From Chromatiales bacterium (GTDB lineage Bacteria; Pseudomonadota; Gammaproteobacteria; JAGRGH01), in assembly GCA_020445605.1 (NCBI GenBank), contig JAGRGH010000006.1, positions 1 to 64,000 on the forward strand: a DNA stretch of 64,000 nt. The letters are read 5' to 3'. A model generated the notes under the pieces. The model was not told where the DNA came from. It saw only the letters and a list, made by a program, of their open reading frames with translations, and did no database searches. Of the stretch, positions 44,639-63,490 are shown piece by piece. The translations under genes were made by a program, and so were the position numbers. Position 1 is the stretch's first letter; every line of letters begins with the position of its first letter.

Positions 44639-44900
44639 GAGACCCTCCCCCAGCTGGAACCACCCCACCGTCTACCCGAGATCCCTGGCGTCGGCACTCT
44701 GGCCGAGCATCGCGGAATCAGGCGTCGTTATTCGCACCATCTGATAGCCCCAAACCCGCGCAAAAGCAAGGGCCTGGCGGAATCTGCCGACCGAACGAGG
44801 CAGTCAGACTCGGGGCGGGCGGACGGGGGGGCATTCAGCCAGGGTTCAGCCACCCGCGCGTAGCCTGAGGACCATGATTCATGAATACGAGGGCATCGCC

Positions 44901-45482
44901 ATGAAACGCCTGACCGCGATCGCCGCATTGGGCCTGGCCGCCACACTCGGCGGTTGTGCCCACTATTACGACTACGGATATGCGGGCTACGCCTACGACG
45001 ACGGCTACGACCGCGAGTACCTCTACGATGACTATGGGTACGGCTACGGTTATCCGGCCTGGTCCGTCGGCGTCTGGTCCGTCCACACGCCGCACTACGG
45101 GTCAACCATCTACCACGACGACCACCATCGCGACGGAAAAAAGAATCGCCATGACGGCCACCACTCAGACCGTCGCCGGCGCGACCACGACCGTGGCAAA
45201 AAGGATGACCGGCGTTCGGGTCACCGAAGTGATTTTCGTGGCGAGCGCGAACATAAGGGCCGAGACCCCAGCCGGAACGTCTACACCGAGGGCGACTGGG
45301 CGCCCGATCGCCGCCATGTGAAGAAACCTGACGACAACGACAGCGGCAAAAGAATATTCAACCAGATTCACGGTCTGGATGAGCGATCGAAGTCCGCGAA
45401 CGATAGGGGCGGCTCGCGGGATTGGTCGAACCGTTCCTCATCGCGCGATGACGATTACGGCAGACAACGCCGCCGAGACTAG
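44901..45482 (+). CDS. Tyr/Gly-rich, highly charged lipoprotein
   Basis: 193 residues. A lipoprotein signal (MKRLTAIAALGLAATLGGC) places the acylated cysteine at residue 19. Next comes a low-complexity Tyr/Gly/Asp stretch (YYDYGYAGYAYDDGYD), then His/Asp/Arg/Lys-rich sequence to the end, with the more ordered motif YTEGDWAPDRRHVKKPDDND. I know no function; an extracytoplasmic adhesive or metal-binding role is possible. A decayed paralog lies at about 47490-47740 on the same strand. Confidence 0.75.
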   Translation: MKRLTAIAALGLAATLGGCAHYYDYGYAGYAYDDGYDREYLYDDYGYGYGYPAWSVGVWSVHTPHYGSTIYHDDHHRDGKKNRHDGHHSDRRRRDHDRGKKDDRRSGHRSDFRGEREHKGRDPSRNVYTEGDWAPDRRHVKKPDDNDSGKRIFNQIHGLDERSKSANDRGGSRDWSNRSSSRDDDYGRQRRRD

Positions 45483-45524: not shown

Positions 45525-46361
45525 TCAGGCTGTCGTCTGATTCGAGACGCCGCCGCTGGTTCTGCGCTGGAACGGATCGCGCAGCACGGCCAGCAGCCCG
45601 ATGGCCTCGCCCACGGGCACGTCTTTCACGCCAATGCCCATGCGCGCATGTCCCAACGCCGGCGCAGCCCGGTAGGTGCCAAATAGGCGATCCCATATCG
45701 GTGTGATAGCGGCGAAGTTTGAGTTGGCCTCTTCCATGTCGATCGAATGATGCGTGCGATGTACATCGGGCGTGACGAACACCATCCGCACCAGCGCATC
45801 AACACCTGCTGGGATGTTTACGTTCGCATGCGCAAAAAACGTCATCACCACCGAGAACAGGCCGTATACAGCGACAAGCAGCGGCGGCGCTCCAAGCAGT
45901 ACAACGATCGATAGATCGACGGCGGTGGAAACCACAGCTTCGAGCGGGTGAAACCGCAGCCCCGTGGAAAAGTCGTAGTCCGGGTCGGAGTGATGGATTC
46001 GGTGCAGCCGCCAGAGCACCGGTACCGAATGCAGTAACCGGTGCATCCAGTAGCGGCTGACATCCATCACCACGAGCGAACCCACAACGGCAACAGTCGT
46101 CGGCGCAGCGACATGGTTGAACAGTCCCCAGCCGTTTTCGCGCGCCCAGAGTGCGGCGCCGACCGCAAGAACGGGGAACGCAAGACGGACGATCGCGATG
46201 TCCACAATGGTGACGAGAATGTTCGTGCGCCAGCGCCCCAGCATAGGCGCATTCAACGCTCGTCGCGGCGCAAGGGATTCCAGTATCGCCACGATGCAAA
46301 TCATCGCGAAGTAGAGCAGGAGATAGATCTCCGGCTCGCGCTCGATCAACCAGGTCTCCAT
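45525..46361 (-). CDS. Fatty acid hydroxylase / sterol desaturase-family protein
   Basis: Membrane di-iron enzyme of 278 residues with several transmembrane helices. The histidine motifs are WMHRLLH, HRIHHSD and DVHRTHHS, plus HANVN in the loop between. These ligate the iron pair in hydroxylases acting on lipids. The lipid substrate is unknown. It lies next to the array of tiny PEP-CTERM-like genes on the same strand, 29 bp after the last one. Confidence 0.88.
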   Translation of the reverse strand: METWLIEREPEIYLLLYFAMICIVAILESLAPRRALNAPMLGRWRTNILVTIVDIAIVRLAFPVLAVGAALWARENGWGLFNHVAAPTTVAVVGSLVVMDVSRYWMHRLLHSVPVLWRLHRIHHSDPDYDFSTGLRFHPLEAVVSTAVDLSIVVLLGAPPLLVAVYGLFSVVMTFFAHANVNIPAGVDALVRMVFVTPDVHRTHHSIDMEEANSNFAAITPIWDRLFGTYRAAPALGHARMGIGVKDVPVGEAIGLLAVLRDPFQRRTSGGVSNQTTA

Positions 46362-46390: not shown

Positions 46391-46552
46391 CTAGCGACGA
46401 CGTTTGATCCGCCAGGCGAGCACGGCAGCCACCGCACCCGCGCCGGCGAGCACGACGACATTGGGTTCGGAAACCGGAATTACCACGCAACTGGCGTAGG
46501 CACTCGCACTGAGACCGAGCGCACCCAACGCCGCGAGAAAACGTACCAACAT
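46391..46552 (-). CDS. Minimal PEP-CTERM-like protein, copy 1 (53 aa)
   Basis: The signal peptide (MLVRFLAALGALGLSASAYA) is followed by seven residues (SCVVIPV), the SEPN motif at 28-31, a hydrophobic Gly/Ala helix, and an RIKRRR tail. Length and motif position are identical to copies 2 and 3. A GGGGGG Shine-Dalgarno precedes the ATG. The tail has the layout of an exosortase sorting signal. This copy alone has a cysteine in the short mature region. Confidence 0.75.
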   Translation of the reverse strand: MLVRFLAALGALGLSASAYASCVVIPVSEPNVVVLAGAGAVAAVLAWRIKRRR

Positions 46553-46611
46553 GGTCTACCCCCCAACCCGCAGGTGATGGGCGCCCGATAACGGAACCGA
46601 GCGCCCGGGAC

Positions 46612-46773
46612 TCAGCGGCGATGCCTGATTCGCCAGGCAAGCACTGCCGCGAGCGCGCCGGCGCCCGCCAGACCGAGGATGTTCGGCTCGGAAACCGGAG
46701 CGCCCCCGTTACCGGCCAAAGTGCTGACGCTGACAACCAGCAGGCCCAGCGCAGAAATGATGCGAATTTTCAT
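46612..46773 (-). CDS. Minimal PEP-CTERM-like protein, copy 2 (53 aa)
   Basis: The signal peptide (MKIRIISALGLLVVSVSTLA) is followed by GNGGAPV, SEPN at residues 28-31, a hydrophobic helix (ILGLAGAGALAAVLAW) and RIRHRR. It lies 59 bp upstream of copy 1 and has a GGGGGA Shine-Dalgarno. Almost nothing would remain between signal-peptidase cleavage and the sorting motif. Confidence 0.78.
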   Translation of the reverse strand: MKIRIISALGLLVVSVSTLAGNGGAPVSEPNILGLAGAGALAAVLAWRIRHRR

Positions 46774-46830
46774 TGCGTTTCCCCCGTGGTGGACGTTCGG
46801 CTTCGGGATACCGTTCAAGACCGATGAGAC

Positions 46831-46992
46831 TTACCGTCGACGCCGGATTCGCCACGCGAGGGCGCCAGCAAGGGCACCCGCGCCGACCAGCCCAAGGATG
46901 CCCGGTTCGGACACCGGAGTAATAACGACGCCCGCGAGGACGCTGCCGCTGGAAAGCAACATGCCCAGCGCCGTGAGAACGCGAATCTTCAT
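46831..46992 (-). CDS. Minimal PEP-CTERM-like protein, copy 3 (53 aa)
   Basis: The signal peptide (MKIRVLTALGMLLSSGSVLA) is followed by GVVITPV, SEPG at residues 28-31, the helix ILGLVGAGALAGALAW and RIRRRR. It is very close to copy 2 and 57 bp upstream of it, with a GGAGGGG Shine-Dalgarno. The spacing and identical length show tandem duplication. Confidence 0.78.
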   Translation of the reverse strand: MKIRVLTALGMLLSSGSVLAGVVITPVSEPGILGLVGAGALAGALAWRIRRRR

Positions 46993-47049
46993 AGCCCCTC
47001 CCGCTCCGCCGCCCGGCAGGCGTCGAAGTTTGTTCGACAATTCAGTTGG

Positions 47050-47199
47050 TTAGCGACGGCGCGAAATACGCCAGATCAGAACGGCCGCGACCGCCCCGAT
47101 CCCGCCCAGCGCCAGTATGTTCGGTTCGGGCACCGCGGCCGAAGTGGCGTGCGCCATCGGTGCAAATACAGCACTCGCTAAAGTCAGTGCCCTTTTCAT
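47050..47199 (-). CDS. Minimal PEP-CTERM-like protein, copy 4 (49 aa)
   Basis: The signal peptide (MKRALTLASAVFAPMAHA) is followed by TSAA, VPEPN, the helix ILALGGIGAVAAVLIW and RISRRR. This copy carries the classic VPEP form of the sorting motif and is the most diverged. It is the first of the array, 57 bp upstream of copy 3. The stretch 47200-47489 beyond it shows no gene, only a GGTGGCT triplet repeat near 47380. Confidence 0.75.
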   Translation of the reverse strand: MKRALTLASAVFAPMAHATSAAVPEPNILALGGIGAVAAVLIWRISRRR

Positions 47200-47489: not shown

Positions 47490-47740
47490 ACCGATACCGT
47501 CGCAGCCACGGCTACGACCATAGCGGAAGGGGCGTCCGGCGCTAGGACCAGTGCAAAGATATTCGTGGCAAGCGCGAGCAAAAGAGCCCAGACCCAACCC
47601 GAAACTTCTACACCGAGGGCGACTGGGTGCCCGATCGCCGTTATGTTAAGAAACCTGACGACAACGACCACGGCCGCAAAGGATTCAACCAGATTCACGG
47701 GCGCGACGAGCGCGATCTTCAGGACCAAAAAGCGTCAAGC
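47490..47740 (+). pseudogene. Decayed paralog of the Tyr/Gly-rich lipoprotein
   Basis: One frame reads RGKREQKSPDPTRNFYTEGD and continues WVPDRRYVKKPDDNDHG...FNQIHGRDER, clearly matching the end of the gene at 44901-45482. The 5' part with the lipoprotein signal is missing, and a TAG interrupts the frame before RGKRE. The two copies bracket the fatty acid hydroxylase and PEP-CTERM-like array. Confidence 0.7.
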
Positions 47741-50496: not shown

Positions 50497-55992
<5,496 letters not shown>

Positions 55993-60373: not shown

Positions 60374-61612
60374 TCATCGCGAACGCGCCTCTCTCACCAG
60401 CGAATCCAGCAGTCGCGCGAACTCGCGGGTGCGCGCCTCGCGCGAGTGAACGGCAATTTCCTGCGCGGCGCAATGGTCGGAACCCGCGCAGGCCAACATC
60501 GCGCGCAGCGCGGCGGCGATCGCGTCACGCCCATCGAGCGGCGCAACGCGTGCGATCGGAAACTCCGCAAGTCGCCAGGCCGTATCACCGGCCGGGTCCG
60601 TCAGCGCAAGAATCGGCCGGTTCGCGCGCAGGTACTCGTAGAGTTTCGCGGGAATCTGTGCATTGCAGTTCGAGGCCTGCAGGAGCAACAGTGCATCGGC
60701 GGAACACATTTCCGCGAGTGCATCCCGATACGGCAGTGGTCCGGCAAGTTCCACGATTCTCTCGAGACCACGCTCGCGCAGCATTGGTTTCAGCACAGCA
60801 TCGTTCTGCGTGGCCCGCAGCACGACGCGCAGGGACCGCTCGGTGGCGTCACCCGCCTCCCGCAACGCGGCCAGGGCGTCGAAGAACACCCGCGGATCGC
60901 GCTCGTTCGGATACAGCGTGCCGCTGTGCAGCAGCGTGAATGGCGCATCGTGCGCGCGAGCGGAAACGGCGGGAAGACCCGCGAAATCGGATTCGTCGAA
61001 CGCGTTTTCGATGATCGCGACCGGCTGCCCGCCGCGCCGCGCGGCGAACGCCCGCGCCGCGCCAGGGGTCGTCACGGTCACGATGTTCGCCCGCGCGAGC
61101 ACGGCATCCTCGATCGCGCGCATGCGCCGGTAGCGCTCCGGTTCCGGCGGAAACCCGTCGTCCGTCATGGGATCGCGAAAATCGGCGATCCATGGCAGGC
61201 CGCTGCGCCGCGCGACCTCCATGCCGATTCGCATGGTCGTCGCAATCGGATAGGTCGACCAGATCGCGGCCGGCCGATGTCTGCGAATCAGGCGCAAGGC
61301 CGCGCGCACGGCCGACCACCGCCAGGTCGCCCAGCGATCGGGGTCCGCCGCGCGGTGCGGATAGCGCCCGGCGACGGACAGATGCCGCGCCGCATCCAGC
61401 ACGAAACTGCGCTCGACGATGACGCCGGGCGGCACGAGCGCATCGGCATCGCCAGGCGCGACGCGCGCATAGGCCCGCGGGTGCGGCGCCAGCACGATCG
61501 GCTGCCAGCCGAACGCGGGTAGATGGCGACTGAAACCGAGCGTGCGCTGCAGGCCGCTGCCGGTCGCAAGCGGCGGGTAATGAAACGCAATGAGCAGCAC
61601 CGAGCGGTTCAT
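60374..61612 (-). CDS. Glycosyltransferase, family 4 type
   Basis: 412 residues with a GT-B layout. The N-terminal domain starts MNRSVLLIAFHYPPLATGSG. The acceptor/donor cleft has PFTLLHSGTLYPNERDP and the late donor-binding motif IPAKLYEYLRANRPILAL. Such enzymes add sugars to lipid-linked polysaccharide precursors in the cytoplasm. The stop of the hydrolase-1 gene lies 4 bp inside its start region, so translation is probably coupled. Confidence 0.88.
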   Translation of the reverse strand: MNRSVLLIAFHYPPLATGSGLQRTLGFSRHLPAFGWQPIVLAPHPRAYARVAPGDADALVPPGVIVERSFVLDAARHLSVAGRYPHRAADPDRWATWRWSAVRAALRLIRRHRPAAIWSTYPIATTMRIGMEVARRSGLPWIADFRDPMTDDGFPPEPERYRRMRAIEDAVLARANIVTVTTPGAARAFAARRGGQPVAIIENAFDESDFAGLPAVSARAHDAPFTLLHSGTLYPNERDPRVFFDALAALREAGDATERSLRVVLRATQNDAVLKPMLRERGLERIVELAGPLPYRDALAEMCSADALLLLQASNCNAQIPAKLYEYLRANRPILALTDPAGDTAWRLAEFPIARVAPLDGRDAIAAALRAMLACAGSDHCAAQEIAVHSREARTREFARLLDSLVREARSR

Positions 61613-62445
61613 GCCGGTTCCACGCGGTCGTGCAGCCAGTCGATTGTCGCCGTGGCAACGCGCTGTCGCCAGGCCGCGCTGGAAAAGGTGTGGTCGGCGT
61701 CCGGCAAGTCGATGCGCGTGACGTCGGGACGCGACAGGCGTTCGGCCCAGCGTGGCTCGCGCGCGCACAGTTCGACAAACTCCTTTGCCGTCAGATCCTG
61801 TCCGCTGATCACGAGCAGGGTTTCCCCGCCAAATCGTTGCCAGCCGTCGAGCATGCGATTGACGAACCCCGGGGCCGGCGCGTCCGAGCGCGCGGCGGTC
61901 ACGCTGCCGCCGAGTTCCGCCGCGGCGTTTCCGACCCGCACCCGCCCGCGCAGCAGCTTTGCCCAGAACGACGGACTCGCCAGGCGACGCAGGTAATACC
62001 CGCGCAGCCGCGCGCGAGCCGCTCCGGCGGCGGAACGCACCCAGGGATTCGCGGTCACGATGCCGCGCACGCGGGGATCGGTCGCCGCGTAGAGCATCGC
62101 CGCCGAGGCGGCGTCACACAGACCCCAGATCACGACCGAGCGACAACCGGCGCGCGAACTGAGCGTGTCGATCGCGTCGCGCAGCACGGCGTCCAGCGCA
62201 TCGAACGGCCGCGGCGCGCCGGAGCTGTCGCCCATGCCCGGCAGATCGAAGCGCAGCACCGGGAACCCGGCTTCGGCAATCGCACGCGCGAACATCACGA
62301 AGCTGCGGTGCGCGCCGACGCGATACTGCGGTCCGCCGACGACGATCAGCACACCGACCGACCGGCCCGCAGGATGCAGCAGCGCAAGCAGATCATCCCC
62401 GCCACTGGTGAACCAGAACGGTTCAATGACGGCTGCGGCGTTCAT
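61609..62445 (-). CDS. Exosortase-A-system-associated hydrolase 1
   Basis: Alpha/beta hydrolase of 278 residues. The segments LIVVGGPQYRVGAHRSFVMFAR and LRFDLPGMGDSSG and the elbow-like VIWGLCDAASAAMLYA match the hydrolase found in exosortase A (PEP-CTERM) polysaccharide clusters. The substrate is unknown. The ATG overlaps the hydrolase-2 stop (ATGA). The family recognition is from memory but the segments are characteristic. Confidence 0.85.
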   Translation of the reverse strand: MNAAAVIEPFWFTSGGDDLLALLHPAGRSVGVLIVVGGPQYRVGAHRSFVMFARAIAEAGFPVLRFDLPGMGDSSGAPRPFDALDAVLRDAIDTLSSRAGCRSVVIWGLCDAASAAMLYAATDPRVRGIVTANPWVRSAAGAARARLRGYYLRRLASPSFWAKLLRGRVRVGNAAAELGGSVTAARSDAPAPGFVNRMLDGWQRFGGETLLVISGQDLTAKEFVELCAREPRWAERLSRPDVTRIDLPDADHTFSSAAWRQRVATATIDWLHDRVEPA

Positions 62446-63233
62446 GGCCACAGTGCCGCCGTGGCATCGATCAGGGCCGGCAGGGTCACGATCTCGCCGG
62501 ACTGCCAGAACGGGACGCCAACGCAGGTATGCAGGTTCGCGCCGGCCGCTGCGGCCCAAGACTGCGCGGCCGGCGTCGCGGGCGTTTCGGCCTGCGCGAC
62601 GAGCTCGAACTGGTCGATGCGTTCGGCGCCGGCCAGTGCAGCGGGTTCCAGCCGCGCGGATTCCAGCCCTGTCACCAGCGCCGGAGACAGCGCATAGCCC
62701 GCGACCTCGATGGTGTCGCCGGCAGCAAGACGCTCGCGCAGGCGCTGCGGCGACACATCGGCGTCGCGCTTGCCGGTCAGACCCGCCGCCAGCGCAAGCC
62801 GCAGGAACTGTGCGAGATAGCGACGACCGTCGACCACCGGTTGCCAAAGGCAAACGCGCCCCGGATTGGCGATGGCGTCACACAGCAATGCACCGGTGCG
62901 CAGGGCCAGCACATCCACGCTTCCCGGCAGCCGTTCGCCGATCCACGCGGACATTGCCGCAACTTCTTCCCGCCAGCGCGCCATCGAGGCATCGGAATGA
63001 TCACCGGCGCTGTCACCGGTACCGCCAAGGTCGGGTAGCAGCACGGCAACGCCGTGCGACTGCAACGCCCGCGCGGCAAGGCTCAGCATGCGCCGGGACT
63101 TGTTCATTTCCTCGGCGAACGGCGGCAACACCACGGCGGCACGCCGCGGCGCGGGGACGGGATACCAGAGGCAAAAGCAGGCGCCGTGCGGACCGTCCAG
63201 AAAGAACGGCTCGGGGGACGCGGGGGACGTCAC
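62442..63233 (-). CDS. Exosortase-A-system-associated hydrolase 2
   Basis: 263 residues. VVLPPFAEEMNKSRRMLSLA and VLLPDLGGTGDSAGDHSDA are hallmarks of the second hydrolase of exosortase A clusters, always next to hydrolase 1. The GTG at 63233 overlaps the acyl carrier protein stop (GTGA). Together with the acyl carrier protein it implies a modified, possibly acylated, exopolysaccharide precursor. Confidence 0.85.
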   Translation of the reverse strand: MTSPASPEPFFLDGPHGACFCLWYPVPAPRRAAVVLPPFAEEMNKSRRMLSLAARALQSHGVAVLLPDLGGTGDSAGDHSDASMARWREEVAAMSAWIGERLPGSVDVLALRTGALLCDAIANPGRVCLWQPVVDGRRYLAQFLRLALAAGLTGKRDADVSPQRLRERLAAGDTIEVAGYALSPALVTGLESARLEPAALAGAERIDQFELVAQAETPATPAAQSWAAAAGANLHTCVGVPFWQSGEIVTLPALIDATAALWP

Positions 63234-63490
63234 GTGACGGTCTTGAGCTGCCCTTCGACGAAGCTGCACAGGCTGCCGACCGAGGCGAAGTCATCGGCGC
63301 TGATGGCGTCGTCCTCGACGGCGAACCCGAAGGTGTCCTCGATTGCGGTCAGCACCGCGACCACGGCCATCGAATCGAACTCCGGCAGCGCGCCGAGCAG
63401 CGCGAAATCCGGCTCCGGCGGCACCGGAACCTGGAGCGTGTCGGTGAGGATGCGCACAACGGTTTCGGAGCAATTCATCGGCCGGTTCAT
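63230..63490 (-). CDS. Acyl carrier protein of the exosortase cluster
   Basis: 86 residues. The phosphopantetheine serine is S40 in PEFDSMAVVAVLTAIEDTFG, and the acidic helices are typical. It carries an acyl group for the adjacent pathway rather than general fatty acid synthesis, judging by its neighbours. The ATG at 63490 is used; a second ATG lies at residue 5. Confidence 0.9.
   Translation of the reverse strand: MNRPMNCSETVVRILTDTLQVPVPPEPDFALLGALPEFDSMAVVAVLTAIEDTFGFAVEDDAISADDFASVGSLCSFVEGQLKTVT

Follow-up and report, generated by a model that had tools for sequence, protein, structure and literature searches.

A tandem array of cargo-less PEP-CTERM-like miniproteins upstream of a fatty acid hydroxylase gene in a Chromatiales bacterium

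The Miniprotein Array and Its Surroundings

Four very small genes follow one another on the minus strand between positions 46391 and 47199 of the window, that is, the whole stretch of 64,000 nucleotides from a Chromatiales bacterium that was analyzed. With the stop codon counted in, they occupy 47050..47199 (miniprotein 1, 49 residues, VPEP tail, MKRALTLASAVFAPMAHA followed by TSAAVPEPNILALGGIGAVAAVLIWRISRRR), 46831..46992 (miniprotein 2, 53 residues, VSEP tail, MKIRVLTALGMLLSSGSVLA followed by GVVITPVSEPGILGLVGAGALAGALAWRIRRRR), 46612..46773 (miniprotein 3, 53 residues, VSEP tail), and 46391..46552 (miniprotein 4, 53 residues, VSEP tail). The spacers between them measure 57, 57, and 59 bp. 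Each gene has an ATG start preceded by a G-rich ribosome site (for example, GGGGGG or GGAGGGG).

The four products share one layout. A basic N-terminus and a short hydrophobic core lead to an A-x-A type site; a linker of 5–7 residues then connects this site to an (S/P)EP motif, behind which come a helix and an arginine tail. SEP is found at residues 28–30 in all three 53-residue copies, and PEP at residues 24–26 in the 49-residue copy. In the four-row alignment, E29, P30, the helix, and R52-R53 are invariant; so is W47-R48-I49, the helix ending in WRI. With the first three of these features as the rule, a signal peptide was recognized in four of four copies. The signal peptidase (SPase) I-type sites AHA, VLA, TLA, and AYA lie 5, 7, 7, and 7 residues ahead of the motif, respectively. 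An earlier note on this DNA had described four minus-strand genes of 53, 53, 53, and 49 residues, 57–59 bp apart, with SEP at residues 28–30 of the longer copies and 4–7 residues ahead of the motif; the open reading frames (ORFs) and the alignment bear this out, and the residue counts come close. Miniprotein 4 is the sole copy with a cysteine (C22), two residues past its predicted SPase I site (AYA/SC); this weak resemblance to a lipobox is absent from the other three.

A rule-based detector for this architecture picked out exactly the four array genes in the window. Applied to Markov-simulated 64-kb sequences (n = 60), the same detector gave a mean of 0.05 and a maximum of 1. The array is thus not a chance occurrence. 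Pairwise differences among the copies fall mostly at third codon positions. Over the full length, dS is about 1–3 and dN 0.24–0.67; within the tail, the values are 0.9–1.6 and 0.11–0.34. Mean pairwise identity reaches 72% in the tail, 43% in the signal peptide, and 17% in the linker. Hence, these are real genes under selection at the protein level, with the tail as the most important part.

Next to the array, on the same strand, lies a gene for a 278-residue protein of the fatty acid hydroxylase superfamily (45525..46361; PF04116, 111.7 bits for a cut-off of 31), with the histidine boxes HRLLH, HRIHH, and HRTHH. Its first codon is 32 bp from the start of the miniprotein 4 stop codon. As the two lie in different reading frames, the idea that the array reads through into the hydroxylase or is fused to it was rejected. 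The array and this gene, coding for a predicted membrane di-iron lipid hydroxylase, would form one unit, probably one operon. The extent given in the earlier note, 46391–47199, holds for the array and stops just short of the hydroxylase gene, which would belong to the unit.

PEP-CTERM genes typically have a sigma-54 site; none was found upstream of the array (69 matches in the window vs. 80 expected, none near 47.2–47.9 kb), and a search for sigma-70 promoters and terminators gave nothing above chance. Two paralogous fragments, separated by about 2.3 kb, flank the hydroxylase-miniprotein unit. They form a 217-bp direct repeat, 78% identical, on the plus strand (45169–45385 and 47496–47712), one copy being inside an intact 202-residue lipoprotein-like gene (44874–45482) and the other degenerate. 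Farther away, the plus strand carries an ORF of 1831 residues with a UvrA-like beginning (50497–55992), about twice the usual length of UvrA.

Sorting Tails and the Exosortase A System

The Pfam PEP-CTERM profile (PF07589, gathering cut-off 20.7) gives 24.5, 24.9, 22.7, and 20.6 bits for miniproteins 1 to 4, so that three of the four copies pass and the fourth is short by 0.1 bit. One of the four, miniprotein 2, also exceeds the cut-off of TIGR02595 (19.3 bits for 16). The whole-genome PF07589 search did not list the four window copies. Besides the profile score, the array shows the other sequence features of PEP-CTERM proteins: a C-terminal xEP motif with a helix and a basic end, a signal peptide as defined by rule, and an exosortase in the genome. 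Judged from these sequence features, the tails are PEP-CTERM-like sorting tails, which an exosortase would presumably cleave. Cargo is no part of the PEP-CTERM profile. Across 274 genomes of the class, PEP-CTERM matches lie mostly in open frames of about 180–400 codons.

Other small sorting families were also considered. The array scores 12.3 bits with TIGR04200 (PExPT-CTERM, cut-off 40), and the window copies match neither NF033207 (midcut-by-XrtH) at E ≤ 1 nor IPTL-CTERM (PF18203/TIGR04174). Elsewhere in the genome, miniproteins reach at most 27.7 of the 45 bits needed for NF033207, over positions 10–64 only (best E 2.4e-6), and 19.1 of 20.8 bits for IPTL-CTERM, this best score being that of a miniprotein of contig C50. 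By their profile scores, the array proteins are thus placed outside the PExPT-CTERM, IPTL-CTERM, and midcut-by-XrtH families.

The genome (3.36 Mb, 63 contigs, listed as 100% complete) encodes exosortase A. The sole exosortase match of a whole-genome PF09721 search (C59:28708-29460) is XrtA by NCBIfam (331.6 bits, cut-off 208). It lies in a typical XrtA locus, with FemAB, glycosyltransferase, and amidotransferase genes of the XrtA/PEP-CTERM system as neighbors. The window itself carries, on the minus strand, two hydrolases associated with the exosortase A system. Hydrolase 1 (61609..62853) scores 303.3 bits with TIGR03100 (cut-off 168.45); the match begins at residue 145 and the ORF exceeds the length of the gene. 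Hydrolase 2 (62442..63269) scores 232.7 bits with TIGR03101 (cut-off 202.75). An 86-residue ORF with a DSM serine motif in the same cluster (63230..63490, minus strand) probably encodes an acyl carrier protein. The earlier note had named these two hydrolases and an acyl carrier protein at 61.6–63.5 kb and had expected the genome to hold an exosortase system. Both hydrolases and XrtA are found, and the small ORF is acyl-carrier-like. The description of the array as sorting-signal-only PEP-CTERM-like proteins in an XrtA genome also stands, with tails matching PF07589 and dN well below dS.

Full-size proteins of the genome carry the same types of tail, PEP-/SEP-like and IPTL-like (for example, VPEPGILALFGLGLAGMGLTR, ISEPSAIALFGLGLLGLGAARIRRAKA, and VPTLSAWGVVALGALLGLAGFSTRRRG). 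The IPTL-like tails prompted a search for a second exosortase, XrtH; the whole-genome PF09721 search gave XrtA only, and a motif and phmmer scan of additional stretches of the genome found no further exosortase. A second, undetected exosortase is possible. Eight proteins of this genome exceed the midcut-by-XrtH cut-off, five of them in tandem (C40:129296-132304, loci L267 and L268) and the others on C31, on C32, and at C40:161 kb. It is the only one of 369 genomes of the class with such proteins above the cut-off, though no XrtH was found there.

Repeated Linkage of Miniproteins and Hydroxylases

The genome holds nine hydroxylase paralogues, and the HX3H, HX2HH, and HX2HH boxes are intact in all nine. 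Immediately upstream of seven of the nine genes, and on the same strand, stand one to four miniproteins (12 in total), with gaps of 30–187 bp. These loci are the window (four miniproteins), C63:110.8 kb and C32:27.7 kb (two each), and C57:45.0 kb, C51:120.1 kb, C63:23.0 kb, and C49:179.4 kb (one each). The sorting-signal-only reading of the earlier note stands; what it missed was the downstream hydroxylase and the six further pairings.

At the six other linked loci, the tails have VP-x-(L/D)-x-x-x-x-L in place of SEP, with V, P, and one L invariant, the V-P pair standing just ahead of the helix. Tails are thus specific to each cluster: SEP...WRIRRRR in the window, VPxDNP/SP or VPALDSWG elsewhere. 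In a profile-profile comparison with hhalign, the VPxxD miniproteins align with the SEP array (probability 94.5, E 8e-8).

Three more clusters are not directly followed by a hydroxylase gene. Two of them are single miniproteins, on C40 and on C59; the third is a tandem trio on C50, on the strand opposite to the C50 hydroxylase and roughly 1 kb away from it. Genome-wide profile searches gave no clear small-frame members beyond these three clusters. There were also none in 247 kb of other regions of the genome, where the detector gave just two hits, both apparently internal to longer frames. A hypergeometric estimate for seven of ten clusters falling on nine of about 3000 genes gives a rough P of 1e-17, and P is 1.6e-9 for seven of nine hydroxylases linked if 100 clusters are assumed; both values serve as a guide, because inspection of hydroxylase loci was what brought most linked clusters to light.

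In a tree of the hydroxylases, the paralogue at C32:142 kb, a conserved orthologue that has no miniproteins, has a short branch and falls among the hydroxylases that are common in the class. The miniprotein-linked hydroxylases are divergent, many deep forks being poorly resolved; all divergent paralogues except that of C50 have miniproteins. The best NCBIfam match of the window hydroxylase is the ornithine lipid hydroxylase OlsE (NF052566), at 102 bits for a cut-off of 475. A search by sequence among solved structures returned none resembling it.

Cargo-Less Tails in Other Genomes

The comparison genomes all come from other orders. At the hydroxylase loci inspected there (the best matches in the class, and then loci in paralogue-rich genomes such as G111 and G228), no upstream miniprotein was seen. 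A contig scan with the array profile gave 595 pattern stretches, none of which was confirmed, and one with the hydroxylase gave one distant relative.

The earlier note had treated the architecture as unique. However, at least 12 other genomes, spread over about 10 families, carry cargo-less PEP/IPTL-like tails (G065, G301, G313 with two, G258, G146, G153, G334, G326, G070, G127, G322, and G327 with two in tandem). The tandem miniproteins of G327 (L233, 5394-5567 and 5618-5806) have APALDEWG tails and lie about 19 bp upstream of an operon for a gluconate-2-dehydrogenase subunit 3 and a GMC oxidoreductase, which suggests that miniproteins pair with other oxidoreductases too. A GMC oxidoreductase gene beside the miniprotein of G146 was set aside, being convergent and not shared by the congener G258. 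In G127 (L281) and G322 (L280), a cargo-less PEP-like miniprotein stands ahead of a very large SdrD_B protein on the same strand. This protein has no recognizable signal peptide at its start, and in G127 its gene is followed by type I secretion-like genes (ABC transporter, membrane-fusion, and outer-membrane proteins).

Possible Functions of the Miniproteins

We tentatively favor the possibility that the miniproteins are minimal exosortase-type substrates working with a cognate lipid hydroxylase, probably as units for anchoring a peptide to a lipid, a chemistry that we infer. According to sequence rules, Sec export and cleavage by signal peptidase I would leave a miniprotein of about 31–33 residues in the inner membrane: a single helix, preceded by 5–7 residues in the periplasm and the (S/P)EP motif and followed by an arginine tail in the cytoplasm. 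The tail is homologous to those recognized by exosortase A, and XrtA would then cut at the motif. By analogy with the pairing of archaeosortase and lipid enzymes, the hydroxylase would modify a lipid acting as anchor or nucleophile, and the peptide stub would end up on this hydroxylated lipid. In favor of this reading are the PF07589 scores, the low dN of the tails, XrtA in its typical locus, the full-size proteins with the same types of tail, the linkage at seven of nine hydroxylases with its absence from the conserved orthologue, the profile link between the SEP and VPxxD miniproteins, the intact histidine boxes, and the archaeal precedent. Several observations count against such anchoring. 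No exosortase gene was seen beside the hydroxylase loci examined. Tails are cluster-specific despite the single exosortase found, a pattern that recognition by the cognate hydroxylase would explain equally well or better. The stub to be attached is unconserved, and no hydroxylase directly follows three of the clusters or the dehydrogenase-linked pair of G327. Further points are the missing upstream sigma-54 site and the low OlsE score of the hydroxylase.

The strongest rival explanation is compatible with anchoring, the two not being exclusive. It holds that the miniproteins, derived from sorting tails, sit in the membrane as partners of their cognate hydroxylase (small subunits, assembly factors, or regulators), which would recognize the tail helix, with no processing by exosortase. 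We regard this as possible, if somewhat doubtful. The linkage to seven of nine hydroxylases speaks for it, as does the conservation of the helix and tail and not of the peptide to be released; features such as W47-R48-I49, specific to their cluster while one exosortase was found, suggest cluster-specific partners. However, the invariant V-P/EP and the A-x-A sites are processing signals that a helix partner does not need, full-size secreted proteins end in the same tails, some clusters have no hydroxylase, and one pair stands ahead of a dehydrogenase operon. The varied contexts of cargo-less tails in other genomes, with no adjacent hydroxylase, would agree with ordinary minimal substrates of exosortase, that is, surface peptides or filler encoded in one operon with the hydroxylase and having no joint function with it. 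This is unlikely, as seven of the ten clusters known immediately precede one of only nine hydroxylase genes.

The remaining explanations fare less well. The earlier note had proposed decoys for exosortase: several copies of a complete recognition signal devoid of cargo could titrate exosortase A, so that full-size PEP-CTERM proteins are sorted more slowly. This idea is weakened to the point of being improbable, since it leaves the repeated pairing with hydroxylases unexplained and no regulatory feature was found upstream of the array. Secreted micro-peptides, another proposal of that note, would be signaling or antimicrobial peptides released by SPase and exosortase cleavage. Mature peptides of 5–7 residues in tandem variant copies recall such products, but they are very improbable here because the residues to be released are the least conserved part of the proteins, and no dedicated receptor or exporter gene was recognized next to the array. 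Hardly credible, finally, is that the genes are decaying remnants of larger PEP-CTERM genes of which signal and tail alone are left, even with the degenerate 217-bp repeat in the flanks: dN is well below dS, the frames are intact with strong ribosome sites, three copies are equal in length, and the same architecture recurs at nine other loci of the genome.

To our knowledge, the acceptor for bacterial exosortase substrates has not been identified so far, and the fact that minimal exosortase-type substrates are repeatedly encoded next to a lipid-modifying enzyme suggests a lipid. A bolder version of the anchoring reading, which we consider quite unlikely, is a ribosomal lipopeptide system in which exosortase would join short peptides to a hydroxylase-modified lipid, about seven diversified peptide-hydroxylase pairs yielding different surface lipopeptides. 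A substrate of about 50 residues is small enough for mass spectrometry of the whole molecule, and cargo-less tails of about 50 codons are easily left unannotated.

Comparison With Known Systems

A literature search returned no paper on cargo-less PEP-CTERM proteins or their linkage to hydroxylases, and the tandem array and its pairing with a hydroxylase appear to be undescribed in searchable papers. With the PEP-CTERM/exosortase A system (PF07589/TIGR02595 with TIGR03109), the array shares the signal peptide, the EP motif, the hydrophobic helix, the arginine tail, and the presence of XrtA in the genome. It differs by having no cargo domain, by its four tandem copies, by its link to a hydroxylase, and by S for the first P in three copies. 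PExPT-CTERM, the target of XrtJ (TIGR04200, 57 positions), is a full-length family of comparable small size. Since such very small exosortase-target models exist, small size alone is not new; however, the array scores below the cut-off, XrtA is the sole exosortase found here, and PExPT-CTERM is not an array. We know of no pairing of that family with a hydroxylase. The VPxx miniproteins located by the other hydroxylases match positions 10–64 of midcut-by-XrtH (NF033207, 175 positions), but they do not have its C-terminal 110 residues, remain below its cut-off, and occur where no XrtH was detected. As for the hydroxylase, it shares with OlsE the PF04116 superfamily match and the histidine boxes; it scores far below the OlsE cut-off and is preceded by miniproteins.

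Finally, the archaeosortase ArtA offers a parallel in which a sorting system is tied to lipid-synthesis genes. In Methanosarcina, the artA gene adjoins the lipid-synthesis genes pssA and pssD, and the Haloferax homologues of the latter are required for lipid anchoring of ArtA substrates (PMC7157517). In that system, in contrast to ours, the neighbor of the lipid genes is the sortase gene itself, the known substrates include the large S-layer glycoprotein, and PssA and PssD make a lipid head group and carry out no hydroxylation.
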